Positions 6,642-43,619 of a DNA stretch of 45,291 bases are shown piece by piece. This DNA comes from Bermanella sp. GTDB taxonomy: Bacteria > Pseudomonadota > Gammaproteobacteria > Pseudomonadales > Oceanobacteraceae. Each line of letters begins with the position of its first letter. Positions within the stretch are counted from its first letter, which is position 1. The notes beneath the pieces were generated by a model. It was not told where the DNA came from, made no database searches, and worked only from the letters and a program-made list of their open reading frames with translations. Location of the stretch: positions 1-45,291 of the forward strand of contig JAPYOO010000009.1 in the NCBI GenBank assembly GCA_029938135.1, in the 5' to 3' direction. A program made the position numbers and the translations under genes.

Positions 6642-6727
6642 TCATAGGACACGTTTATAACCATTTTATTTTTTTAAATGGAACAAGCTTGGCTAAAATA
6701 TACGCTCAGACAGTAGATGCTTAAGGC

Positions 6728-7468
6728 ATGGCCATGACAGGGGGAGTTGCCTTGTACAGCGATCAAAAACCGGATTATGACCAGCTTATCGAGCAGCATG
6801 CCACGCTCGTGAAGCGCATTGGGCACCATTTAAAAGGGCGCTTACCCGCCAGTGTGCAAGTGGATGACTTAATTCAATCGGGCATGATTGGCTTGATGGA
6901 GGCGGCACGTAAATACGAGCCCAGCAAAGGCGCCAGCTTTGAAACCTACGCGGGCATTCGCATTCGCGGTGCCATGCTGGATGAAATTCGTAAAGGCGAT
7001 TGGGCGCCACGTAGTGTGCATCGTAACAGTCGCCGTATAGCGGAGGCGATTCGCTTTGTAGAAGGGCAAACCGGCTGTGACGCCAAGGACAGTGACGTGG
7101 CCCAAGCATTGGACATGTCACTGGAGCAGTACCATCATCAGCTACAAGATGGCATGGGCTCACGACTGTTCAGTTTTGAAGAGTTACTGTCGCAACAAGG
7201 GGAGCGTGAAGGCGGCATAGCGGGCGGCACAGACAGCCCTCTGGCCGGTTTGCAAAGTGAACATTTTAAGCAGCATCTTGCCCGCGCCATTAAAGGCCTG
7301 CCTGACCGTGAACAGCTGGTATTGGCTCTATACTATGATGAAGAGCTCAACTTAAAGGAAATAGGCGCCGTGCTGGAAGTGAGTGAGTCCAGGGTGAGTC
7401 AGATTCATAGTCAGGCAGCGCATCGCTTGCGTGCTCGTCTGAGTGAATGGGTTGAAAAACAAAGTTAG
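6728..7468 (+). CDS. fliA: Flagellar sigma factor FliA (sigma-28)
   Basis: LPASVQVDDLIQSGMIGLMEAARKY...SFETYAGIRIRGAMLDEIRKGDWAPRSVHRNSR; region 4 LNLKEIGAVLEVSESRVSQIHSQAAHRLRARL. Confidence 0.95.
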   Translation: MAMTGGVALYSDQKPDYDQLIEQHATLVKRIGHHLKGRLPASVQVDDLIQSGMIGLMEAARKYEPSKGASFETYAGIRIRGAMLDEIRKGDWAPRSVHRNSRRIAEAIRFVEGQTGCDAKDSDVAQALDMSLEQYHHQLQDGMGSRLFSFEELLSQQGEREGGIAGGTDSPLAGLQSEHFKQHLARAIKGLPDREQLVLALYYDEELNLKEIGAVLEVSESRVSQIHSQAAHRLRARLSEWVEKQS

Positions 7469-7694
7469 ATTTAAGAGCACACATCGTAAGCTATTTCTTT
7501 GAGGTTAATTTTTGCATCACTTTTTTTACTGAACGACGTTGTTTATTTAAGGGCTGTTACACGTTAAAAGCCTGAATTAAACAGACGTCAGCCACTAATT
7601 GTTTAAATCATTGTTTACTGCGCTGGATTACTGACTAAGTGTGACTAGACTAAAACTAGGCATTAAAGTCAAGCCGGGGCACTGGGAGGTAGCT

Positions 7695-8078
7695 TTGGAT
7701 AAAAATATGAAGATTCTCGTTGTAGATGATTTCTCTACTATGAGGCGCATTATTAAAAATCTTTTGCGGGATTTGGGTTTTACCAATACATCGGAGGCGG
7801 ATGATGGCAATACCGCGTTACCCATGCTGCAAAGTGGTAATTTTGATTTTCTTGTAACCGACTGGAATATGCCGGGAATGACGGGAATTGAACTACTAAA
7901 ACATGTGCGCGAAGATGAGAGATTAAAAGACTTACCTGTTCTAATGGTAACCGCTGAGGCTAAGCGTGACCAAATTGTGGCGGCCGCTCAGGCTGGCGTA
8001 AATGGTTATGTTATTAAGCCGTTTACAGCCGCGGTATTAAAGGAAAAAATTGATAAAATATTTGAACGAGCGGGATAG
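7695..8078 (+). CDS. cheY: Chemotaxis response regulator CheY
   Basis: [25 protein letters not shown]...[15 protein letters not shown]...[20 protein letters not shown]. The ORF track starts at 7641; the likely start is TTG 7695 (GGAGG just upstream) or ATG 7707. Confidence 0.94.
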
Positions 8079-30360: not shown

Positions 30361-30855
30361 ATGCTTCCAAAATATTCCAAATTGGCTTATGGGTTCTTAT
30401 TCCCTATAGTGCTATCTCTTCTAATGTTTAATACCAAAGTACAGGCTAATCCGGGAAACTGGGTGAAAGAATTAAACCTTGGGCAATATGAAAACAAGGT
30501 TATTTATATCGATTTTTGGGCATCCTGGTGTCGCCCTTGCCGTAAGTCGTTCCCCTGGATAAACGCGATGCAAGAAAAGTATCAAGACAAAGGTTTAGTG
30601 GTAATTGGTATTAACTTAGATGCAGACTTAGAAAAAGCCTATAATTTTTTAAAACAAACCCCAGCCGAATTTAAATTATTTTCAGACCCAAAAGGGGTGC
30701 TAGCGGATAAATTTACATTGATTGGTATGCCAAGTTCACTGGTGATAGGCGTGAATGGCGAAGTGCGGCACCGACATGTGGGTTTTAAAAAAAGTATTAT
30801 TAAAGAATACGAAACAAGTATCGTGCAATTACTGGACGAAATTCCCGCACACTAA
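30361..30855 (+). CDS. TlpA/thioredoxin-like exported protein (copy 1)
   Basis: Signal peptide; VIYIDFWASWCRPCRKSFPWINAMQEKY...DPKGVLADKFTLIGMPSSLVI (CRPC active site). Confidence 0.9.
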   Translation: MLPKYSKLAYGFLFPIVLSLLMFNTKVQANPGNWVKELNLGQYENKVIYIDFWASWCRPCRKSFPWINAMQEKYQDKGLVVIGINLDADLEKAYNFLKQTPAEFKLFSDPKGVLADKFTLIGMPSSLVIGVNGEVRHRHVGFKKSIIKEYETSIVQLLDEIPAH

Positions 30856-30861
30856 TTATTA

Positions 30862-32187
30862 ATGGGCATGTACGTGTCGAATTTTACGAGTAAAAAAAGC
30901 AGTAAAAATATTCGCTTAGGGCTAAAGTCGGCCAGCCAAGCCTTATTAGGCACCGTACTTGGAGTCAGTACAGCTTTTAATGCACAAGGGCAATCATTGC
31001 CGGATGGCTGGCAGAGTGATGTGGCGCTGCTGGTGTACTCTGAACCAACTCGGGTGAGTGCGCTGGAGCCCGCCATTGCCATTAATAAAATATTTGACGA
31101 TGAAAGCATCCTGGGTATGAAATTAGTTTTAGATGCCTTATCGGGTGCGTCGCACAACGGTGCTGCAGCCAATAATGCCGCGCAAACATTTACACGCCCC
31201 TCTGGACAAGGCAGTTACCAAGCACCTGCGGGTGAGACACCGCTGGATGACACCTTTCGTGATACTCGCATCAACTTTTCGGTTCATTACCAATACGACG
31301 TAAAGCGCTTAGAAAAAATGCTGTGGGGTGTGAATGTTTCAAGTGAATATGATTTTTTAAGCGTAGGCGGCAGTAGCACTTATTTACGGGATTTGAATCA
31401 GCGCAATACCACCCTTAGCGCAGGTTTATCATTTGAAATAGACAGTATTCGGGCGGTAGGCGGTTTTGCTGACCCGTTATCAGCCATGCAGGCCAATACT
31501 CTAGCGCAAAATAAAGTGGGCAGTAGTCATAATCGTGTGATGATTGAATCCCTATTGGGCATCACCCAAATCATCGATCATAAAAGCTTATTGCAAATAA
31601 ATTATGGTTTGGCTTTTAGCGACGGGGAACATACGGATCCCTATAAAGTGGTTTCTGTTTTAGACAGTAATGGGGATTTAATCGCCGCCAATGGACTTAA
31701 TGGCACCTACTTGTACGAGCACCGGCCTGATAGTCGTATTAGGCAAAATGTCTTTACTAAGTTAAAGCGTTTTGTGTGGGGGGATGTGGTGGATGTATCT
31801 TACCGATTTGCATGGGACGATTGGGGCATACATTCACATACGCTTGATACTCACTACCGATTCAACCTTTCAGCCTCTTTTTATCTAGAGCCTCATTTGC
31901 GCTTTTACCAACAGCAACAAGCCGATTTTTATCGCCACAGTATTACCAATAGCGAAATAGTGCCCAATTTTTTAAGTGCGGATTATCGCTTGGCAAATAT
32001 GCAAGCCAACACCATAGGGGTAAAACTTGGATTCTTAACCCCTAGTGGGCATAAAAGCAGTGTGCGTTTTGAGTATTACCAGCAGACCGGTAATAGTCAC
32101 CCCAGTAATGCGTTGCCCAATCAAAAAAATATTGATTTATATCCCACGGTTGAGGCATATATTTTTCAATATAATTATAAAATTTAA
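30862..32187 (+). CDS. DUF3570 family protein (copy 1), predicted outer-membrane beta-barrel
   Basis: Closely similar to the copy at 37763-39082: SDVALLVYSEPTRVSALEPAIAINKIFDDESILGMKLVLDALSGAS, LNQRNTTLSAGLSFEID; amphipathic beta repeats to a short terminal strand. Confidence 0.85.
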   Translation: MGMYVSNFTSKKSSKNIRLGLKSASQALLGTVLGVSTAFNAQGQSLPDGWQSDVALLVYSEPTRVSALEPAIAINKIFDDESILGMKLVLDALSGASHNGAAANNAAQTFTRPSGQGSYQAPAGETPLDDTFRDTRINFSVHYQYDVKRLEKMLWGVNVSSEYDFLSVGGSSTYLRDLNQRNTTLSAGLSFEIDSIRAVGGFADPLSAMQANTLAQNKVGSSHNRVMIESLLGITQIIDHKSLLQINYGLAFSDGEHTDPYKVVSVLDSNGDLIAANGLNGTYLYEHRPDSRIRQNVFTKLKRFVWGDVVDVSYRFAWDDWGIHSHTLDTHYRFNLSASFYLEPHLRFYQQQQADFYRHSITNSEIVPNFLSADYRLANMQANTIGVKLGFLTPSGHKSSVRFEYYQQTGNSHPSNALPNQKNIDLYPTVEAYIFQYNYKI

Positions 32188-33629
32188 CGTTTGTCATCTT
32201 TAAATATGGGCAAGCGAACTTCTACCCATAATCCGCCCAGTTGTGAGGCTTTAAACGCCAGTTCCCCTCCATGAAAAACCACAATACTATTAACTAGGGC
32301 TAAGCCTAAACCGGCCCCTAGGCCTGTTTGTTGATGCTGTCGATAAAATCGATCGGTGAGTTTATCAACTTGGTCTAGGGGAACACCGGGTCCTGAATCT
32401 TGTACACTAAGAATAATATCGCTTTCGTTTTGAGTTATCGATAACTCCAAACGGCCCTTCTGTGGGGTATATTGGCTGGCATTATCAATTAAATTACGAA
32501 TTAAAATTTCCAATAAAAACCCACTGCCATTGAGCTTCATCGTTTTAATGGATGACGGGCATTTCATCGACATATCCTGATGTTTGGCCAGCACCTTAGG
32601 TGCCATTTGTGCCAGTATCTCTTGGCATAAGGGATAAAGAATCAGTGGCTCAAGAGGGATAGTGTCGGGGGATATTTTGGAGAGTGTTAATAGCTGTTCG
32701 AGTAAACGGGATATTCGTGTCACGCCTTTTTCTAACTCGCCTAAAGCGAGATTCCTATCTTGCCCATCAGTGGCATTAATGGCATTTTGCGCGTGGATCA
32801 TAATGACGGCCAGTGGGGTGCGTAACTCGTGGGCCGCATCGGCGGTGAGGCGCTGTTCCCGTTTAATGGCTTCTTCTAAGCGCGTAAATAAATCATTAAG
32901 TGACTGTACTACAGGCTTCATTTCGCTGGGCGTATGGCCTAACTGAATGGCGGATAAATTATTGGCTTCTCGCGATTTTATACTTTTGGCTAGCTGCACC
33001 AATGGTTTTAAACCCATACGAATAATAACAATGAGTGATAACAAAACTAAAGGCAGCATTAATAAACCGGGTTTAAGGGTTTGCCCTGAAATTCCCTGAG
33101 CTAACTCTTCCCTAATAGATTCACTTTCGGCCACGTGTAACCAAAAATCCCAGTCTTCATCGTACAAACTAAAAACGCGCCAGTTTTCTGAATTTCCGTC
33201 CATGGATGACACCAGTGTGCTGCTAAAACCTTCGCGGAAGGCGGCAAAATTACTGGCGGGCGCACTGCCAGATTTTACCAAAAGTTTCCCTTGCTTGTTC
33301 CATACTTGGTAGGCGACTTTTTTTTGGTAAAGCAACGTGTTTTTATCGGCCACTCGTGTTTCATTTAAGCCGTAATACACCACAGGTAAATGTTTAGAAC
33401 GTTGGTCTATGGTGGCAACACTATCACCTAATAAGTTAAGTAAAATATAAGAACTTTGTGCAAGCTGTGCATCAAAGAGTTCCTCTATTTCATGCACGGC
33501 TTGATGGCGGCTAATGTAGTAGGTGGCGCCAATATATAGTGTAGTAAAAGATAAAATACTGATTAATAAAAAACGCCGAATGGACGTGTTCACTTTAAGT
33601 CCCTCTAACATACTCAGTACACCCCTCAT
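32184..33629 (-). CDS. QseC/PmrB-like sensor histidine kinase
   Basis: Two TMs, HAMP-like linker, LTADAAHELRTPLAVIMIHAQNA, GLGAGLGLALVNSIVVFHGGELAF. ATGA overlap with the upstream regulator gene. Confidence 0.9.
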   Translation of the reverse strand: MRGVLSMLEGLKVNTSIRRFLLISILSFTTLYIGATYYISRHQAVHEIEELFDAQLAQSSYILLNLLGDSVATIDQRSKHLPVVYYGLNETRVADKNTLLYQKKVAYQVWNKQGKLLVKSGSAPASNFAAFREGFSSTLVSSMDGNSENWRVFSLYDEDWDFWLHVAESESIREELAQGISGQTLKPGLLMLPLVLLSLIVIIRMGLKPLVQLAKSIKSREANNLSAIQLGHTPSEMKPVVQSLNDLFTRLEEAIKREQRLTADAAHELRTPLAVIMIHAQNAINATDGQDRNLALGELEKGVTRISRLLEQLLTLSKISPDTIPLEPLILYPLCQEILAQMAPKVLAKHQDMSMKCPSSIKTMKLNGSGFLLEILIRNLIDNASQYTPQKGRLELSITQNESDIILSVQDSGPGVPLDQVDKLTDRFYRQHQQTGLGAGLGLALVNSIVVFHGGELAFKASQLGGLWVEVRLPIFKDDKR

Positions 33630-34282
33630 AGAGTAATGACCGTGTAACCTACGCCGCGCACGGTGGTGATGAGCTTGCCATAGATTTTTTTGCGTAGGTT
33701 ATGAATGTGTACTTCAAGAGCGTTGCTTTCGATGTCGTCTTGCCAACTATAAAGGGATTGCTCTAGGGAGGTACGACTCATAACCTTGCCTTGGTTCTGC
33801 ATTAACACTTCAAGCAAGTTGTATTCACGGCGAGATAGAGTGACAGGATTATTTTGGAAACTCACTTGGCGTGATTGGGTATCTATGCAGACGTCACCAT
33901 ATTCTAAGGTATTGTTGGCTTGGCCGCTGCTACGACGTAGTAGTGCGCGCATACGTGCTTGTAATTCGTTTATATCAAAGGGTTTTGGCAGGTAGTCATC
34001 GGCCCCAAGATCTAGGCCGTGTATCTTGTCATCTATACTGTCGCGAGCGGTTAAAATGAGCACTGGGGTCGTATGGTGCTGGCGAAATGCTTTTAAAAAG
34101 CTAAAACCATCGGCGTCGGGTAGTCCTAAATCCAATAGCACAAGGTCATAGTGTTCTTGACTGGTGGCGTTTAAGCCCAGTTGTACTTTGTCAAAATGAT
34201 CCACCACATAATGCTCATTCTGCAAGGTTTGAATTAAGCCCAGTGCTAGCTGTTGGTCATCTTCTAAAATTAAAACGCGCAC
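33626..34282 (-). CDS. OmpR-family response regulator of the QseB/PmrA type
   Basis: MRVLILEDDQQLALGLIQTL...GLDLGADDYLPKPFD...SRREYNLLEVLMQNQGKVMSRTSLEQSLYSWQDDIESNALEVHIHNLRKKI...ITTVRGVGYTV. Confidence 0.92.
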   Translation of the reverse strand: MRVLILEDDQQLALGLIQTLQNEHYVVDHFDKVQLGLNATSQEHYDLVLLDLGLPDADGFSFLKAFRQHHTTPVLILTARDSIDDKIHGLDLGADDYLPKPFDINELQARMRALLRRSSGQANNTLEYGDVCIDTQSRQVSFQNNPVTLSRREYNLLEVLMQNQGKVMSRTSLEQSLYSWQDDIESNALEVHIHNLRKKIYGKLITTVRGVGYTVITL

Positions 34283-34376: not shown

Positions 34377-35135
34377 TTAATGCAAATATTTATTGTAAAT
34401 GCGCTCGAATTCTCCGGAGGCCTTTACTTGATCCAGTGCGATTTGCCATTTATTAATAATGTTATCGGGCATTTGTTTAGAGCAGGCAATATACAGGGGG
34501 AATTCTAATAGTTTTAATTGAGTTTTAACCAGTGCATTAGGGGCTTCATTGAGCTGCTTTAAATAGTAGCTGATGCCAAGCGGTGTAACATTCGCTAAAA
34601 GATCCGCACGGCCCATTAATACATGACGAAACTGCGCATCTTTTTTTGGCATTTTATGAATGTTGGTAAGTTTTAGAGTATCAACATAACTGGAAACTAA
34701 TCCTTTATGGGGGATCGCTATTTTAGCGACTTTTTTTATATCCGAAATAGACTTAAAAATACGTTGATCATCTTTTCGTTTATAAAAATAAATGGACTCT
34801 TGGGATATTGGACCAATCCATTTGTAGTGATTTTCTCTTTCTGGGGTTCTAAATAAAGAGAAACTCATAATGTTGGACTGATGGTTTAACATAGACTCCC
34901 CTCTTGCGCCTGGATAAACGGTAATAGTGTGAGTTTCACCCAGTTGGACCATCATGGCTTGAACAATCTCCACTGAAAAACCGCTAATCTCGCCATTTTC
35001 TTGGTAATTGTAAGGGGCCCACTCTTCAGTGATGATTTCAAGCCCATAAGTAGGTGTTTCGCCGGCCGCCACTAAGCTCCCCCATACCAACGAAGAGGTG
35101 ATTAACAATGCCATTAAACCTTTAATACTCGCCAT
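34377..35135 (-). CDS. Exported family-3 solute-binding-protein-like protein
   Basis: Signal peptide; YGLEIITEEWAPYNYQENGEISGFSVEIVQAMM ... GEFERIYNKYLH. Confidence 0.85.
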   Translation of the reverse strand: MASIKGLMALLITSSLVWGSLVAAGETPTYGLEIITEEWAPYNYQENGEISGFSVEIVQAMMVQLGETHTITVYPGARGESMLNHQSNIMSFSLFRTPERENHYKWIGPISQESIYFYKRKDDQRIFKSISDIKKVAKIAIPHKGLVSSYVDTLKLTNIHKMPKKDAQFRHVLMGRADLLANVTPLGISYYLKQLNEAPNALVKTQLKLLEFPLYIACSKQMPDNIINKWQIALDQVKASGEFERIYNKYLH

Positions 35136-35377: not shown

Positions 35378-35679
35378 ATCACAAATAAGGTCAATACCAA
35401 TGAGCGCATAGCCTTAGAGCAGGCCAATCTTAAGGGATTGAACATTAAGGGTTTTGTACGCTTTAGCTACACCGCGCAATGGCATGATTTTCCGGGCAGT
35501 TTAAAAGTGAGTTGTCACTTTCTCTCCAGTGAAGCACGCAATTGATGGGCTCTCTTGATCAAGAGGCTGTGTTGATAAAAATTATTCAACACCGTTTTTT
35601 AAAGCAGGGTATAAGATTTAAAGATGTGCGTAACAATGTTGTATTTACGCACTTAGAGACTAATGAGACGAAAGTGTAA
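35378..35679 (+). pseudogene. Frameshifted remnant of a small protein gene
   Basis: Frame 1: KVNTNERIALEQANLKGLNIKGFVRFSYTAQWHDFPGSLKVSCHFLSSEARN*. A different frame continues GSLDQEAVLIKIIQHRFLKQGIRFKDVRNNVVFTHLETNETKV* to 35679. FPGSLKV resembles the small proteins often annotated 'Fis family transcriptional regulator' (recalled, unverified). Confidence 0.5.
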
Positions 35680-36523
35680 GCCAGTCGTTTAACACATTTA
35701 AAATAATTAAGCTCTTTTGAATACGAAGACTCTCGTTTTCTAAGGGTTTGTCCCGTTGATATAGACCTTTAAGTGTTTGTTTTGCGGTGGATAAATCCAC
35801 TGCTTCCAACTTCATCATACTTACAAAGTAATATACTTCGCCTAACCAACTTTTAGTATCCGCTTCAGCCATGTTATCTTGCAATAAACCGTTACCAGAT
35901 AAAATGTAATTGTTTATTTTGGCATGTAATAATTTTGAAGAGAGGCGGTTTGAATCCTGATCCATTTTTAGGGCGTTTACTAGGCCGATTATTTTGTCAT
36001 GATTGTCATGATTGTTTTGTTGAGCCAGTTTTAGGCTATTTAATTGCACTTCCAAAATAGGGTATTGATCATTGCTAGTATTCGCCTGTATCTCTTTTAA
36101 TGTTAACTGCAAAGAACTAATAGCATTCTCTATTTGAAGATCTTTTTTATCAAAAATTTGGGCGCGAATATCCACCTGTTCAGATACGTTTGTCGTGATT
36201 AACCCTGTTAAGGTAGACGTTAAGCTATTTAATTCACTGTCCATCTCCAATTTTACTATGTATGGCATGGCAACGGTCATTAACGTGGCGGCGAGTAATG
36301 CAATGATGGTATTGCTAATACGGCTAATTTGGGTTGATACCCAGGCTTTTAAGCGGTTTATAAAACTGTTTTTTTCCTGTTCAATCTTTTCGGCGGCTAG
36401 CCGAACTTGCTCTTGTATTGCCTCGCTTGTGTGCTCTAAAGTATCGTCTGGCAGATGGCTAAGTGCACTCTTGATAGGATGAAGTTTATCGGCATTATTG
36501 TTAGGTGTATTTTTATTATTCAT
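35660..36523 (-). CDS. Uncharacterised single-TM coiled-coil protein
   Basis: 287 aa, one hydrophobic segment (ISNTIIALLAATLMTVAMPYIV) flanked by helical/coiled-coil sequence; no recognised domain. Confidence 0.65.
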   Translation of the reverse strand: MNNKNTPNNNADKLHPIKSALSHLPDDTLEHTSEAIQEQVRLAAEKIEQEKNSFINRLKAWVSTQISRISNTIIALLAATLMTVAMPYIVKLEMDSELNSLTSTLTGLITTNVSEQVDIRAQIFDKKDLQIENAISSLQLTLKEIQANTSNDQYPILEVQLNSLKLAQQNNHDNHDKIIGLVNALKMDQDSNRLSSKLLHAKINNYILSGNGLLQDNMAEADTKSWLGEVYYFVSMMKLEAVDLSTAKQTLKGLYQRDKPLENESLRIQKSLIILNVLNDWLTLSSH

Positions 36524-36710: not shown

Positions 36711-37604
36711 TTAATCTTGTACCCAGTGAACCACCTCTTGTTCCGCTAAAAATGCTTTTGAGCCACTCCCCTGTAACATGGCCAAGGTTGACAATAATCC
36801 CGCTTCTACACACGTCGCTGCCGCCACCGTGACAGATCTGGGGGCATCCATAATAGGGTGTCCAGTTTGTGGGTTTAATATATGTGAATAGCGCACATCG
36901 TCTTTTAATAAAAAGCGTCGTGCATCTCCACTGGTGGCCAGCGCCCCTTGGCGTAAACTCACCACCGCAGAATGACCTCCGCCCACAGATTCAATGCCCA
37001 CTTGCCAGGGCTGTTGATTAAAACGTGGCCCATTGCAGACTAGATCGCCGCCAAAATTTATTAAAATGGGTATGCGTTTACCTGTATTTTTCTCCATAGC
37101 TTTTTGCAAACAACGATCCACCGCATATTCTTTGCCAATGCCTCCAAAATCCAGCTCCATGTTAATGGGCATAGTGAGGTCGGGTTTTTTCCAAATCACT
37201 TTTTGCAGCCCTATAAACGGAAGCAATTCCTTAATTTGAATATCACTGGGTAACGTATCCGAGCCATCAAATTTCCAGGCGCGGCGCAAAATCCCAGAGG
37301 TTACGTCAAAGAAACCATCGGACATGTCATAGCAGGTAAAGGCAAAGTCCATTAACAAGCTACTTTCCTCATCAAGCGTGATGGTTTCACCCTGACTATT
37401 GTTCATCTTGAACATGAGGTTAGTGTTGATGTAACGACTGAATTTTTGCTCTATGCGCTTGGCTTCACTGTAAGCGGCGTGAACAAGTTGTTGGGCAAGT
37501 AATGGATCGTGTAAATCCATTAATATTTCGCAGGGGCTGGCCATGGCGTCGAAACGACCAGTAAAGCCGTGTTCCGTTTTATCTATCTTGTATAAATCAG
37601 CCAT
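36711..37604 (-). CDS. apbE: FAD:protein FMN transferase (ApbE family), no evident signal peptide
   Basis: FDAMASPCEILMD, FFDVTSGILRRAWKFDG, DFGGIGKEYAVDRCLQ, NFGGDLVCNG, RYSHILNPQTGHP...SVTVAAATCVEAGLLSTLAML. Confidence 0.93.
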   Translation of the reverse strand: MADLYKIDKTEHGFTGRFDAMASPCEILMDLHDPLLAQQLVHAAYSEAKRIEQKFSRYINTNLMFKMNNSQGETITLDEESSLLMDFAFTCYDMSDGFFDVTSGILRRAWKFDGSDTLPSDIQIKELLPFIGLQKVIWKKPDLTMPINMELDFGGIGKEYAVDRCLQKAMEKNTGKRIPILINFGGDLVCNGPRFNQQPWQVGIESVGGGHSAVVSLRQGALATSGDARRFLLKDDVRYSHILNPQTGHPIMDAPRSVTVAAATCVEAGLLSTLAMLQGSGSKAFLAEQEVVHWVQD

Positions 37605-37667
37605 AGAGTGAATCGTTCTTAGACATTTCTGTGATGGAGATGGGTGTGAACGTGCACCATAACCGCC

Positions 37668-37703
37668 TTACACGATAGATTCAAACATGAATCTATCGTG
37701 TAA
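37668..37703 (-). repeat. Perfect intercistronic hairpin between DUF3570 and apbE
   Basis: TTACACGATAGATTCA-AACA-TGAATCTATCGTGTAA, 16-bp perfect arms, 4-nt loop, no U tract on either side. Confidence 0.85.
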
Positions 37704-37762
37704 GTGAATTCAGCTCACAAATTTAACTCTCGAATTAAAGTACGCTGTTAACAGACGCCTTA

Positions 37763-39082
37763 CTAGAAGCTGTAATTATATTGCATGATGACCGCATCTA
37801 CATCGGGCACTAGGTCTTGGCTACTTTGCGCACCATAAACGTCGCTGGCCCTACTGGTTTGATTGTAGTACTCAAGACGAATACTGGATTTATTACCACC
37901 TGGGGTTAAGAATCCTAGTTTTAACCCTATGGTGGTGGCGGCCATTTCACCTAATCGGTAATCGGCGGTTAAATCCCCACCGGATGTTTCAAGTAACGTC
38001 GCTTGCGTGGTGGTGATGCTAGTGTGATAGAAGTCAGCGGCCTGTTGGCTGTAGTATCGAACATGCGGTTCTAGGTACCACGATTTTTGGTTGAAACGAT
38101 AATGCATGTCTATGGTGCTAGATGCCACCCCCCAGTCATCCCACATGAAACGATAAGAGGCATCAGCTACATCGCCACTGATATTACGTTTCACTTTGGC
38201 AAAAAGGCTGTGTTTAATGCGGCCATCCGGACGGCTTTCGTATAAATACTTACCATCAAGACTTTCGCCTGGTGCAACTACGCCGGTAACCTCATCCACC
38301 ACCGAGACTATTTTGTAAGCGTCGGTATGGTAGCCATTACTTACTGCGACGCCGTAATTAAATTGCATAAGCGTATTTCGGTCCACCACTTGCGTGACCC
38401 CCAGTAACATTTCAACCATATTACGGCTTTTTTCACCTTCCCGGGTTGATGGGCCTGCTGCTTGCATTTCGGTTAATGCAACGGGGGCGCCCCCAACGGG
38501 TTTAATGGCATCGATCTCAAAGGAAAAACCGGCGCTTAGCGTGGTATTGCGCTGATTTAAATCACGCATGAAAGTACCGCTGCCGCCAAAACTTGTGAAA
38601 TCAAACTCGTTAGAAATATTGGCACCCCACACTATTTTTTCTAATCGATCGCTTAGTGGTTGCTCATAATTGGCGGTGAAATTGATTCGAGTATCACGAA
38701 AAGTATCATCTAATGGCGTCTCATCTTTACCAGTGATATAGGTGCCACTGCCTGAAGGACGTGTAAAGGTTTGCACCTCACCGGTGGCGCTGGCGCCATT
38801 GGCTGAAGCACCTGTGAGTGCATCAAATACCAATTTAAAACCCAGAACGCTTTCGTCTTCGAAGGTTTTTTTAATGGCAATGGCAGGCTCAAAAGCGCTT
38901 ACGCGGTCTGTCTCGGTATAGCCCAGTACCGCAATGTCGGTTTTCCATTCGCCTTCTAAATTGGCAGTGTCAGACTCGGCCTGAACGCCTGCGGTGGTTA
39001 CACCTAATAAACAGCCGGTGGCGGATGTTAGTATTTTACGGATGTCTTTGTTACTTTTTAGTTTTCTATTTTGATTATTCAT
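37763..39082 (-). CDS. DUF3570 family protein (copy 2), predicted outer-membrane beta-barrel
   Basis: KTDIAVLGYTETDRVSAFEPAIAIKKTFEDESVLGFKLVFDALTGASANGAS...TPLDDTFRDTRINF...; paralogous to 30862-32187; C-terminal VDAVIMQYNYSF. Confidence 0.88.
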   Translation of the reverse strand: MNNQNRKLKSNKDIRKILTSATGCLLGVTTAGVQAESDTANLEGEWKTDIAVLGYTETDRVSAFEPAIAIKKTFEDESVLGFKLVFDALTGASANGASATGEVQTFTRPSGSGTYITGKDETPLDDTFRDTRINFTANYEQPLSDRLEKIVWGANISNEFDFTSFGGSGTFMRDLNQRNTTLSAGFSFEIDAIKPVGGAPVALTEMQAAGPSTREGEKSRNMVEMLLGVTQVVDRNTLMQFNYGVAVSNGYHTDAYKIVSVVDEVTGVVAPGESLDGKYLYESRPDGRIKHSLFAKVKRNISGDVADASYRFMWDDWGVASSTIDMHYRFNQKSWYLEPHVRYYSQQAADFYHTSITTTQATLLETSGGDLTADYRLGEMAATTIGLKLGFLTPGGNKSSIRLEYYNQTSRASDVYGAQSSQDLVPDVDAVIMQYNYSF

Positions 39083-39142
39083 ACAGGGAACTCACGGCTA
39101 TCTTCAATATTTATTTTGATTAACGTTATGTATTATTGAATG

Positions 39143-39361
39143 CTAATTACACCCGCAACCACCTCCGCCAAACCCTTTGCCTCCACTACTGGCCTCCTTA
39201 CTAAAATAAATATGGTCATCAAAAGCACTGTCCATACTGGCACTTTCCAACGCCATGTCGTCACGGGCTAAAATGTCACGTTCCCAAGGTTTAACCCCCA
39301 TAGAGCTGCAACCACTAATAAAAACACTGCCTAGCAATAGGGTGAATACAATCGGCTTCAT
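39143..39361 (-). CDS. DUF4266 small lipoprotein
   Basis: Lipobox FISGC; VKPWERDILARDDMALESASMDSAFDDHIYFSKEASSGGKGFGGGGCGCN, the conserved DUF4266 layout with C-terminal GCGCN. Confidence 0.88.
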   Translation of the reverse strand: MKPIVFTLLLGSVFISGCSSMGVKPWERDILARDDMALESASMDSAFDDHIYFSKEASSGGKGFGGGGCGCN

Positions 39362-39365
39362 AGTG

Positions 39366-39914
39366 TTACTCCTGAACCAAATTGGCTTGATTAGATTTTA
39401 ATTCGTTTAATAATTCAACAATACCTTGTTCATACTGCTGCACATTGCTTTTTTTAAAGCCCACATGGCGCTCTCGAATTTTTCCGTTACCATCAATGAC
39501 AAATGAACTTGGCATGCCAATTAAATTATATTGCTCGGCCAGTGTGCCGCTGGGGTCAGAAAATAATTTAAACTTGGCTGGGTTCTTTTTTAAAAATAAG
39601 TGAGCCGCCTCAAGTTGCGCATCTACATTAACGCCAATCACCACTAAACCTTTATTTTTGTATTTATCGTGTAAGGCATTGATCCATGGGAACGATTCAC
39701 GACAAGGTCCACACCAAGATGCCCAGAAATCCATGTACACCACTTTTTCTTGATACTGGCTTAAGTCTAGTTCTTCCAGCCATTCACTGCCTTGGGCCTG
39801 CACATTAGTCGCAAATAACAGTGATAATATTAGGCCGCTGGTCATGGAAAGTAATGATGGTCTTTTTATCTGCGACATAGCGGGCCTGTAGTGTGATAAA
39901 TGGGTGTGATGCAT
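39366..39914 (-). CDS. TlpA/thioredoxin-like exported protein (copy 2)
   Basis: VVYMDFWASWCGPCRESFPWINALHDKYKNKGLVVIGVNVDAQLEAAH...GMPSSFVIDGNGKI (CGPC). The real start may be the internal Met at MSQIKRPSLL. Confidence 0.9.
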   Translation of the reverse strand: MHHTHLSHYRPAMSQIKRPSLLSMTSGLILSLLFATNVQAQGSEWLEELDLSQYQEKVVYMDFWASWCGPCRESFPWINALHDKYKNKGLVVIGVNVDAQLEAAHLFLKKNPAKFKLFSDPSGTLAEQYNLIGMPSSFVIDGNGKIRERHVGFKKSNVQQYEQGIVELLNELKSNQANLVQE

Positions 39915-39951
39915 ATGATATTTAGGATGTTACTAGTATGCCTAACTGAAC

Positions 39952-39968
39952 CTTAAGGTTTCCTTAAG
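39952..39968. promoter_or_regulatory. PmrA/QseB-type direct-repeat box between tlpA (copy 2) and dsbD
   Basis: CTTAAG-GTTTC-CTTAAG, exact fit to YTTAAK-N5-YTTAAK, in the divergent promoter region. Confidence 0.65.
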
Positions 39969-40013
39969 TATTTAAAATTATTATCTAACGTATAAGTTTC
40001 CGGAGTTCTAATT

Positions 40014-41792
40014 ATGCGTCAAAGAATCTACCCATTAATACTGATGTTCAGTGTCATATTATTGTCCACCTTCAGTTACGCCCAAGAAGAGGCATTTCTG
40101 CCGGTGGAGCAAGCCTTCCCATATAACGCACAAATAGAGGGTAATTCTCTTAATATACAGTGGTTAATAAGCGACGATTACTACTTGTACCAAGATCGCC
40201 TCACGTTAAAGCAAGCCGGTCGCCATATACCCTTAAGCTTCAGCCAAGGCCCCATTGAAAAAGAAGATGAATACTTTGGGCGGGTAGCGGTGTTTAAACA
40301 TCAACTTGATGCCCACGCCACCATAGACACTACAAAACCCGTAATCTTAAGCTTTCAAGGCTGTGCAGAAGCGGGTTTGTGTTATCCGCCGGTTAAGGCC
40401 CAATTAAACGTGGATAATACAAGTCTCATTAAACGGGGCCCTGTGGCATTAACAAAAGCCAAAGTTGAGCCGTCTGGAGCGAGTGTTGATAACAGTGATG
40501 TGTCGTCAATTACCGCTTTGTTGCAGGGCAGTAACATCTTCTGGCAGCTGTTGATCTTTTTTGGTCTAGGTGTGGGCCTTGCTTTCACTCCCTGTGTATT
40601 CCCTATGATTCCTATTTTATCCAGCATTATTGTGGGGCAGGGCAGTAATTTAACCACCCGCAAAGCTTTTTTCATGTCGCTTACGTATGTATTGGCCATG
40701 GCCATGACCTATGCACTGGCGGGGGTATTGGTGGGGTATTTTGGAGCTAAGGCCAATGTGTCGCTGTATTTGCAATCACCGGTGGTGCTGGGCAGTTTTG
40801 CCGCGGTGTTTGTGGCCCTGTCGTTGTCCATGTTTGGTTTTTACGAGTTGCAATTGCCGCGAGTGATTCAGGACAAGCTGGACAGTTGGAATCAAAAACA
40901 AAAGGGCGGGCAGTTATTAAGCGTCGGCATAATGGGGTCGTTGTCGGCCTTAGTGGTTAGCCCGTGTGTGAGCGCGCCATTGGCGGGCACTCTGGTCTAT
41001 ATTTCTACCACAGGGGACGCCTTGTTAGGGGGAGCGGCCTTGTTAGCCTTAGGTTTGGGCATGGGTTTGCCATTATTATTAATTGGCACAGGCGGTAGCC
41101 GCTTCTTACCTAAAGCAGGCATGTGGATGAACGCCGTGAAAGCCGTATTTGGTGTGGCTTTATTGGGTGTGGCTATCTGGCTATTAGAGCGGGTAGTGCC
41201 AGCGGGTGTCACTATGCTGTTGTGGGCCGTTTTGTTGATTGCTAGTGGCGTCTACTTAGGGGCATTTGAGAACAATACACAGGGATGGCAGCGCTTATGG
41301 AAATCGTTAGGTTTGGTATTGAGTTTATACGGGGTGATGTTAATGCTGGGCGGTGCTATGGGTAATCATAATCCGTTACAACCATTGAAGGGCCTAAACA
41401 CTGCTCAATTTGTGAATAATAGTGTGGCCTTAAATAAACAGGTCATTACCACCCAGGCACAATTACAAGTGGCGTTGCATGCAGCCGCGCAAGCCGAGCA
41501 AATCGTGGTGTTGGATTTTTACGCCGACTGGTGTATTGCTTGTAAAATAATGGAAGAAGAAATTTTTAACCAAGAAAATGTTAAACACGCTATGAGTAAC
41601 GTCGCCTTTGTACAAATGGACATGACAGATAACACCGACGAGCAATTACAAATGCTTAACGACATGGGACTATTTGGTCCACCCGCGGTGTTGTTTTATA
41701 AACAAAATAGTGAGTTAACAGAATTGCGTATCGTCGGTGAAGTACCTGCGCACACCTTTTTAAAGCAATTAAAAACATCGTTCATTTTATAG
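40014..41792 (+). CDS. dsbD: Thiol:disulfide interchange protein DsbD
   Basis: N-terminal alpha domain (CAEAGLCYPP), TM domain (GLAFTPCVFPMIPILSSII, VSPCVSAPLAGTLVYIS), C-terminal thioredoxin domain (DFYADWCIACKIMEEEIF). Confidence 0.95.
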   Translation: MRQRIYPLILMFSVILLSTFSYAQEEAFLPVEQAFPYNAQIEGNSLNIQWLISDDYYLYQDRLTLKQAGRHIPLSFSQGPIEKEDEYFGRVAVFKHQLDAHATIDTTKPVILSFQGCAEAGLCYPPVKAQLNVDNTSLIKRGPVALTKAKVEPSGASVDNSDVSSITALLQGSNIFWQLLIFFGLGVGLAFTPCVFPMIPILSSIIVGQGSNLTTRKAFFMSLTYVLAMAMTYALAGVLVGYFGAKANVSLYLQSPVVLGSFAAVFVALSLSMFGFYELQLPRVIQDKLDSWNQKQKGGQLLSVGIMGSLSALVVSPCVSAPLAGTLVYISTTGDALLGGAALLALGLGMGLPLLLIGTGGSRFLPKAGMWMNAVKAVFGVALLGVAIWLLERVVPAGVTMLLWAVLLIASGVYLGAFENNTQGWQRLWKSLGLVLSLYGVMLMLGGAMGNHNPLQPLKGLNTAQFVNNSVALNKQVITTQAQLQVALHAAAQAEQIVVLDFYADWCIACKIMEEEIFNQENVKHAMSNVAFVQMDMTDNTDEQLQMLNDMGLFGPPAVLFYKQNSELTELRIVGEVPAHTFLKQLKTSFIL

Positions 41793-41804
41793 GGGTTTAA
41801 TCCT

Positions 41805-42572
41805 ATGTCTTTTAATGAAGTGGCTTCTAATAAAGTTAACAGTGTTAATTATACACAGTACACCGTATGGGAACTGCCCGTACGTCTTTTTCATTGGATA
41901 AATGTCGTTAGTGTACTCGGTTTAATTTTTGTAGCCTGCATTATGATGTTTAAGGCGGAGCTGGGCATCACCGGTTTAGAGGCTAAAATTGCCATTAAAC
42001 AAGTACACATAGTGATGGGTTATGTATTTGCCATTAATTTATTGATGCGCATAGTGTGGGGTTTTGTGGGGAATCAATATGCATTATGGAAAAATATCAT
42101 CCCTGGAAAGGGTTTTACTGCAATATTAAAAAGCTATATGGGCAGTATAAAAAACGGCAAACCTCAAACGTATTTAGGCCATAACCCTTTAGGGCGTTTG
42201 GCGGTAACCGCTATGATTACGTTAATGCTGGCGTTGTTAATTAGCGGTCTCACTCGCGCAGCCACCGATGTGTACTATCCCCCATTTGGTGGTGCGGTGG
42301 TAAGTTACATCGCAGCCGAAGGCGTGAACCCTGATAGCCTTAAACCCTATGATAAAACCGGTACAAATCCAGAAAAACGGGCACACGTAAAAGTCTTAAA
42401 AGATCTAGCCGGTGAAATACATGAAATAGCCGCTTTTACCTTAATGTTTATTATTTTACTGCACATAGTTGTGGTGGTACGCAGTGAAGTGAAAGAAGAG
42501 AGCGGTTTGGTGAGTGCCATGTTTAGTGGTAAAAAACGACTTAAAGATAAACCTGAGGATGTTTTAGAATAA
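41805..42572 (+). CDS. Cytochrome b561/b-type membrane protein
   Basis: VWELPVRLFHWINVVSVLGLIFVACIMMF...KQVHIVMGYVFAINLLMRIVWGFVGNQYA...GEIHEIAAFTLMFIILLHIVVVV with His-containing TMs. Confidence 0.88.
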   Translation: MSFNEVASNKVNSVNYTQYTVWELPVRLFHWINVVSVLGLIFVACIMMFKAELGITGLEAKIAIKQVHIVMGYVFAINLLMRIVWGFVGNQYALWKNIIPGKGFTAILKSYMGSIKNGKPQTYLGHNPLGRLAVTAMITLMLALLISGLTRAATDVYYPPFGGAVVSYIAAEGVNPDSLKPYDKTGTNPEKRAHVKVLKDLAGEIHEIAAFTLMFIILLHIVVVVRSEVKEESGLVSAMFSGKKRLKDKPEDVLE

Positions 42573-42872: not shown

Positions 42873-43619
42873 ATGAATAGATATATTAGGCTCTTTTTTA
42901 CAGCCATCCTATGTGTTGCTTCCTTTAACAGTCAGGCCGAGCAGGTTTCCATGGCGTTTGGTGAAAAAATACCGCCATTTTGCTTCCCAGAAACCAATTC
43001 AGGCATTGAACTAGAAGTAATAGGAGAAGCTCTAGCTCATAAGGGGCATTCCCTAGTCCCACATTACTTTCCGTTGGCAAGGGTTCCTTATTCGTTCACA
43101 ACCAAGGTGACAGATGCCGCCATGACTGACATGGGGCAAGATTTAAGCAAACATGGCGGTCACTATGGCGACCCAGCCGTTATTTATGAGAATGTATTAA
43201 TTACCCTTAAACATCGAGAACTGAAAATAGAAACGCCTAGTGATTTAGGCGGCTTATCTGTTATGTCTTTCCAAGGAACACTTAGTCGTTACCCAGATTG
43301 GCTTGCACAGCCAAATAAGGTCGGGAAATTTAGAGCTCATTCAAATCAAGAATTGCAAGTTAAAAATCTGTATAGAGGACGCTTTGACGTTGTATTAAGT
43401 GACCGTAATATTTTTAAATACTTCATGTTAAAGCGAAAAAAAGAGACAGGAAACCCAATGCAAGAAGTCCAAGAGCATATTTTTACTACGTTAAATCCAT
43501 TAGATTATCGTCCAATTTTTAGATCAAAAAAAATCCGGGATGATTTTAACGAAGGCCTTAAGTTTTTAAAAGAAAATGGTCGCTTTCAAAAAATATATGA
43601 TAATTACCTAAAGGAATAA
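42873..43619 (+). CDS. Exported family-3 solute-binding-protein-like protein
   Basis: Signal peptide; VSMAFGEKIPPFCFPETNSGIELEVIGEAL...DYRPIFRSKKIRDDFNEGLKFLKENGRFQKIYDNYLKE. Confidence 0.8.
   Translation: MNRYIRLFFTAILCVASFNSQAEQVSMAFGEKIPPFCFPETNSGIELEVIGEALAHKGHSLVPHYFPLARVPYSFTTKVTDAAMTDMGQDLSKHGGHYGDPAVIYENVLITLKHRELKIETPSDLGGLSVMSFQGTLSRYPDWLAQPNKVGKFRAHSNQELQVKNLYRGRFDVVLSDRNIFKYFMLKRKKETGNPMQEVQEHIFTTLNPLDYRPIFRSKKIRDDFNEGLKFLKENGRFQKIYDNYLKE

Follow-up and report, generated by a model that had tools for sequence, protein, structure and literature searches.

The window analysed here is a stretch of 45,291 nucleotides from Bermanella sp. (contig JAPYOO010000009.1 of assembly GCA_029938135.1) that carries genes for a TlpA-like thioredoxin, a DUF4266 lipoprotein, a DUF3570 protein, the flavin mononucleotide (FMN) transferase ApbE and DsbD. 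On balance, we favour the view that this locus encodes a thiol-to-flavin electron relay across the cell envelope, with TlpA, the tail of the DUF4266 lipoprotein and an FMN on T90 of a DUF3570 barrel as its carriers, a cytosolic ApbE, and control by a PmrA/QseB-type two-component system. In the proposed mechanism, DsbD would move reductant over the inner membrane to TlpA, TlpA would reduce the CGC disulfide in the flexible C-terminal tail of the lipoprotein, and the tail would hand electrons to the FMN covalently bound to T90, near the extracellular mouth of the barrel. The flavin would then pass electrons to an acceptor on or beyond the cell surface, for which ferric iron is the likeliest candidate. 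ApbE, which has no signal peptide, would load the protein with FMN in the cytosol, ahead of its export and insertion as a barrel, and the two-component system would act via a PmrA-type box between tlpA and dsbD.

The locus is a member of the published DsbD system of extracytosolic flavinylation, and the core of this idea is already in print. Meheust et al. 2021 (eLife, PMC8238504) described 285 flavinylation clusters with DsbD, which typically also contain ApbE, DUF3570, a thioredoxin-like protein and DUF4266, and 316 further clusters without DsbD. In that study, the DUF3570 protein of Chlorobium luteolum, the only one for which attached FMN is shown there, was flavinylated at two [S/T]GA[S/T] motifs when it was co-expressed with its ApbE in Escherichia coli. 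The authors noted a conserved CxC in DUF4266 and suggested that thioredoxin and flavin carriers form a hybrid relay supplied by DsbD, the function of which they left open. Since this relay had already been proposed, the main inference of the first-pass annotation of the window, a path from the inner membrane through a thioredoxin and a Cys-tipped lipoprotein to a flavinylated outer-membrane barrel, restates the published model. The main text of the paper, where it treats the DsbD cluster, makes no mention of a barrel, a surface location, a signal-less ApbE or a two-component system, and our literature search found no work on DUF3570 beyond it; two later papers on flavinylation do not treat this family. 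What is new here is the barrel and the topology of its flavin site, the signal-less ApbE, a TlpA-DUF4266 fusion and the PmrA-type control, and these additions make the general model directly testable.

The four core genes lie on the minus strand in the order tlpA (39366-39914; CGPC), DUF4266 (39143-39361; PF14086, E 6.5e-23, 81.9 bits), DUF3570 (37763-39082; PF12094, E 3e-116, 389 bits) and apbE (36711-37604; PF02424, E 9.6e-58, 196 bits). They are divergent from dsbD (40014-41792, plus strand; DsbD_N, DsbD_TM at 310 bits and a thioredoxin domain; NCBIfam PRK00293, 598 bits) and a b-type cytochrome of the b561 type (41805-42572, plus strand; PF01292). Open reading frames and Pfam families agree on this arrangement, which the first-pass annotation had described correctly. 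DsbD (PF02683) is within five genes of ApbE and DUF3570, the DUF4266 protein has a C-terminal CxC, and the DUF3570 protein has a single canonical motif, DALTGAS. The thioredoxin-fold protein matches Redoxin, AhpC-TSA and Thioredoxin_8 rather than PF13899, the family that was found in 183 of the 285 published clusters and that is listed there as typical but not required (PMC8238504).

To examine the conservation of this arrangement, we used 80 related loci from a scan of species genomes. Since these loci were chosen by similarity to the window DUF3570 and are mostly gammaproteobacterial, with a few near-duplicates, the counts describe the branch of the family to which the window belongs, and each denominator is the number of loci with a long enough flank. 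DUF4266 is upstream of DUF3570 in 77/77 loci, TlpA is present in 71/74, and ApbE is directly downstream in 66/73, so that the order TlpA-DUF4266-DUF3570-ApbE is nearly universal. Synteny on this scale means that the grouping of the four core genes is not due to chance. Outside the core, dsbD is adjacent, either divergent or downstream, in 15/50 loci, and a two-component system is adjacent in 19/50. The closest counterpart is another Bermanella locus (L065), which mirrors the window: it contains cytochrome b561 and dsbD, and has the two-component system directly after apbE. An orthologue of the cytochrome stands beside dsbD only in the window and in this one other genome (L065 and L156 are from the same genome). 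The neighbourhood comparison that the first-pass annotation had proposed thus bears out tlpA, DUF4266, DUF3570 and apbE and, in a minority of loci, dsbD. The cytochrome, considered as a part of the module and as its point of electron entry, is not co-conserved; it is rejected in that role and is probably incidental. The proposed path from DsbD through the thioredoxin and the lipoprotein to a flavinylated DUF3570 is that of the published model, and is strengthened by the TlpA-DUF4266 fusion and the barrel model.

The window DUF3570 was modelled with AlphaFold using 82 homologues. The predicted structure (pLDDT, the predicted local distance difference test, 88.5) has 16 strands, and the chain ends in Phe (NYSF). 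The antiparallel strands of the model are even in number and are connected by short turns at one end of the barrel and by long loops at the opposite end, and the C-terminal residue is aromatic, all as expected of an outer-membrane barrel. Its Foldseek neighbours in the PDB are outer-membrane barrels, namely, FadL, AlgE, OmpG and Occ porins. The flavinylation motif, D87-A-L-T90-G-A-S93, has a per-position conservation of 94-100%, and the pattern D..[ST]GA[ST] is present in 79 of the 83 DUF3570 proteins. According to the model, the FMN site T90 is at the end of strand 3 on the predicted extracellular side, where it opens a 29-residue loop that is constant in length and among the best conserved parts of the protein. 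This topology assumes the usual periplasmic termini, in which case every long loop is external. Invariant positions make up 21% of the predicted external loops versus 8% of the periplasmic turns, whereas we would expect the opposite pattern, with external loops less conserved than turns, of ordinary porins. In divergent family members, a second motif lies beside the same conserved loop. From the model, we infer that the FMN would be near the cell surface, at the extracellular mouth of the barrel.

The cysteines that the relay would need are conserved in the proteins preceding the barrel. The window DsbD keeps all three Cys pairs (GCAEAGLC; FTPC/VSPC; CIAC), and relatives of TlpA have CxPC with two cysteines in nearly all cases. 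The DUF4266 protein has the lipobox ISGC, and its remaining cysteines are solely in the C-terminal GGGGCGCN, which the alignments show to be nearly invariant through the final residue. The redox potentials of Cys-Gly-Cys peptides and of protein disulfide isomerase are similar, so that the chemistry of CGC lends itself to dithiol exchange. One metagenome-assembled genome (L119) encodes TlpA and DUF4266 as a single fusion protein of 277 residues, in which both domains score above the Pfam cut-offs and the end is still GGGGCGCN. This fusion favours the view that TlpA and the CGC tail exchange thiols directly. In the AlphaFold model of the fusion, for which the alignment is imperfect in the last TlpA helix, the tail has very low confidence and is apparently disordered, which is consistent with a flexible tether and gives no contact information. 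Since none of the 82 DUF3570 sequences contains a cysteine after the signal region, thiol exchange must end at DUF4266 or TlpA.

The window ApbE has a 17-residue hydrophilic leader ahead of the conserved core, with low hydropathy, no hydrophobic stretch and no upstream start codon; neither a signal peptide nor a lipobox is present. Judged by hydropathy rather than SignalP, among the relatives fetched here, the same is true of essentially all of the 68 comparable ApbE proteins, the three higher values being from open reading frames with over-extended starts, and of 9/9 divergent clusters. By comparison, the Na+-NQR-type ApbE of the same genome (contig C151) has a normal lipoprotein signal. These leaders suggest that FMN is probably attached in the cytosol before the barrel is exported. 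Cytosolic attachment would fit the predicted topology, because a site on the outer face would be out of the reach of a periplasmic enzyme after insertion. It also poses the question of whether Sec can export a flavin-bearing chain. We know of no case in which a cytosolic ApbE serves an exported barrel. A cytosolic ApbE is known for the soluble fumarate reductase of Klebsiella (PMC12052999).

The two-component system of the window consists of an OmpR-family response regulator (33626-34282, minus strand) and a sensor kinase (32184-33629, minus strand), which are 84% and 70% identical, respectively, to the pair in the other Bermanella locus, where the orthologous regulator is directly downstream of apbE. 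The regulator best matches PmrA and then QseB among curated families, in both cases below the cut-offs (255 bits against PRK10643, where 330 are required for the PmrA equivalog). The kinase best matches QseC and then PmrB, and has a QseC-type sensor domain (2CSK_N). The divergent tlpA/dsbD promoter region contains the direct repeat CTTAAG-GTTTC-CTTAAG (39952-39968), that is, the verified PmrA half-sites with their five-base spacing (CTTAAG-N5-CTTAAG; PMC3973317). The core of this repeat, CTTAA-N6-CTTAA, precedes tlpA in 44/71 relatives but only 3/530 of the other genes in these loci, and other spacings are seen in at most four; for this reason, we assign the two-component system to the module, which it would control via the tlpA/dsbD box in the manner of a PmrA-type regulator. 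In the whole host genome, the perfect box occurs only once, in the tlpA/dsbD gap, and a copy with one mismatch is upstream of another DUF4266-DUF3570 module (C337:740-756). The other near-copies in the genome are mostly within genes and give no clear regulon beyond these two modules. Enteric PmrB responds to Fe3+, Al3+ and acid (PMC2565834). The box offers an immediate handle on the inducing signal and hence on the substrate.

Further hints of iron come from the neighbours of related modules. In 12/80 loci (L095, L097, L108, L116, L117, L118, L125, L129, L138, L139, L140 and L144), the regulator and kinase are followed by a cupredoxin, an EfeU-like membrane protein and a 240-residue protein without an assigned function; in L052, only the last three genes of this block were found. 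The membrane protein, which is 263 residues long, does not match Pfam FTR1, and because its match to EfeU is below the cut-off, we label it EfeU-like only. VIT1 iron transporters were reported in 25 clusters (PMC8238504). No iron transporter was found in the window, and metal-specific neighbours are absent from most loci. Ferric iron reduction at the surface is our best guess for the function.

Several points weigh against the relay as we propose it. In the window-type family, PSGxG stands in place of the second published flavinylation site (PSGSG in the window protein), and DUF3570 proteins in four loci (L163, L064, L173 and L181) lack the motif altogether. ApbE has a signal peptide in L163 and L172, so that attachment before export is not universal. 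DsbD is adjacent in only 15/50 loci, and the iron link comes from a gene neighbourhood that most loci, the window included, do not have. It is a guess that the DUF4266 tail extends as far as the FMN, the flavin could point into the lumen of the modelled barrel instead of outwards, and we know of no carrier for electrons along the length of the barrel. The most specific form of the proposal is offered tentatively, as less likely than not. In this form, DUF3570 would be a cell-surface flavoprotein barrel that is flavinylated in the cytosol, exported by Sec with its FMN and reduced by a CGC tail entering the barrel, thereby providing a haem-free route across the outer membrane under a metal-sensing PmrA/QseB-type switch.

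The same relay could operate with its FMN in the barrel lumen or facing the periplasm. The module would then be a periplasmic redox buffer or repair system for envelope thiols or a periplasmic enzyme, and there would be no surface reductase. Barrel loops can indeed fold inward, and non-cytosolic thioredoxin-like proteins mainly serve protein maturation and repair (PMC8238504). Strand parity and loop lengths, however, put the site on the extracellular side together with the conserved loop, and family members with two sites have both motifs beside that loop, so that we hold this arrangement to be rather unlikely. Another possibility is metal handling, in which TlpA would keep the CGC tail reduced so that the tail could take up iron or copper and carry the metal either to the barrel or away from it, with the FMN setting the redox state of the metal. 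CGC is a plausible soft-metal ligand, and the cupredoxin and EfeU-like neighbours in 12 loci, together with the PmrA/QseB-type regulation, point in the same direction. Nevertheless, metal-specific genes are missing from the window as well as from most loci, and a conserved covalent flavin implies electron transfer; we therefore consider metal handling improbable as the main role.

The remaining explanations fare worse. The first-pass annotation had offered, as an alternative, a system that matures the Cys/Gly tail of the lipoprotein, which would amount to peptide modification, and the near invariance of the tail up to its last residue might be read in this way. However, the ApbE target motif is in DUF3570 and not in DUF4266, a DUF3570 protein has been shown to be flavinylated (PMC8238504), and the conserved neighbours of the module do not include a peptide-modifying enzyme, all of which makes this explanation highly improbable. 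We give almost no credence to the idea that dsbD and the cytochrome merely adjoin an unrelated operon. It holds for the cytochrome, but synteny in 80 loci refutes it for the four core genes, and dsbD, besides its adjacency elsewhere, shares the boxed promoter region in the window.

Six distinct DUF3570 genes are present in the host genome. Its five DUF4266 genes are the highest number among the 146 relatives searched (the others have one to four). These copy counts may be slightly off, because overlapping sequence at contig ends was used to join two modules and the assembly, which is incomplete (4.73 Mb, 687 contigs, 90% complete), has some contamination (3.6%). A second pair in the window, absent from the first-pass annotation, as were the two-component system (together 32184-34282) and the prior publication of the gene set, consists of tlpA2 (30361-30855, plus strand; CRPC) and a DUF3570 gene (30862-32187, plus strand; motif DALSGAS) that is 56% identical to the first. 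This pair (30361-32187) overlaps the end of the sensor-kinase gene, on the opposite strand, by four bases, and must borrow DUF4266 and ApbE, since neither gene adjoins it. Its DUF3570 is probably an old copy, because all close relatives lie at about the same distance from it (54-60%). Four further DUF4266-DUF3570 modules are present: C582 (L046), with DUF1501; C337+C633 (L049+L003), alone; C89 (L047), with chalcone-isomerase-like proteins; and C180+C318 (L048+L050), apparently a complete operon, which includes a dsbD and an apbE of its own as well as a 642-residue lipoprotein whose C-terminal part weakly matches beta-propellers.

Among the relatives, a subfamily with a CGCY tail (L163, L172 and also L057) has the order DUF4266-DUF3570-TlpA-ApbE in L163 and L172, whose ApbE proteins are the ones with a signal peptide. 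Neither flavinylation motif is preserved in the L163 DUF3570, which has TAAS and SQAT instead, and the DUF3570 of L057 (9266-12004; 912 amino acids in total) has a C-terminal extension of about 360 residues with no family match. Another subfamily (L053, L064, L181 and L182) has VKPYERxxLADPIM in DUF4266, SGAS or SSAS as its motif and no apbE nearby; judging from these motifs, some of its members may do without flavinylation entirely. In many related loci, the DUF3570 start codon is inside the codons of the DUF4266 GGGGCGCN tail, with an overlap of about 10-16 bases (e.g., L074:6445-6666 and 6651-7940), which suggests translational coupling; the corresponding gap in the window is 60 bases. Between DUF3570 and apbE, the window contains a perfect inverted repeat (37668-37703) that forms a 17-bp RNA hairpin (fold z-score -4.95), occurs once in the genome and has no T-run. 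It is a possible processing or attenuation element and could reduce the expression of apbE relative to DUF3570. Two family-3 solute-binding-like proteins flank the module, and a 287-residue protein with no family assigned is between apbE and the two-component system (regions 34377-35135, 35660-36523 and 42873-43619). Related binding proteins are near some other modules (L065, L116, L125 and L128).

Compared with the published DsbD system (PMC8238504), the locus has the same components in one cluster (ApbE, a motif-bearing DUF3570, a thioredoxin-like protein, a CxC DUF4266 and DsbD), and the same electron path is proposed for it; it differs in having one canonical motif instead of two and in the additional tlpA-DUF3570 pair. 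It shares FMN transferase chemistry and the D..[ST]GA[ST] target with canonical flavinylation of NqrC and RnfG by ApbE, whereas the canonical enzyme is an exported lipoprotein and that of the module has no signal peptide. The resemblance to PmrAB and QseBC is in the best matches of the regulator and kinase and in the half-sites and spacing of the box, while the window pair scores below the equivalog cut-offs and has a redox module, not lipid A genes, as its neighbour. The DUF3570 model has the overall beta-barrel architecture of FadL, AlgE and OmpG, although identity to them is about 8-9%, and we know of no covalent flavin on any of these solved barrels. Among the routes by which electrons cross bacterial outer membranes, the best known rely on multihaem cytochromes inside barrels. 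If our reading is correct, a thiol-fed barrel with a covalent flavin would be a different, haem-free solution, and a common one, since about half of the 146 relatives searched carry DUF4266.

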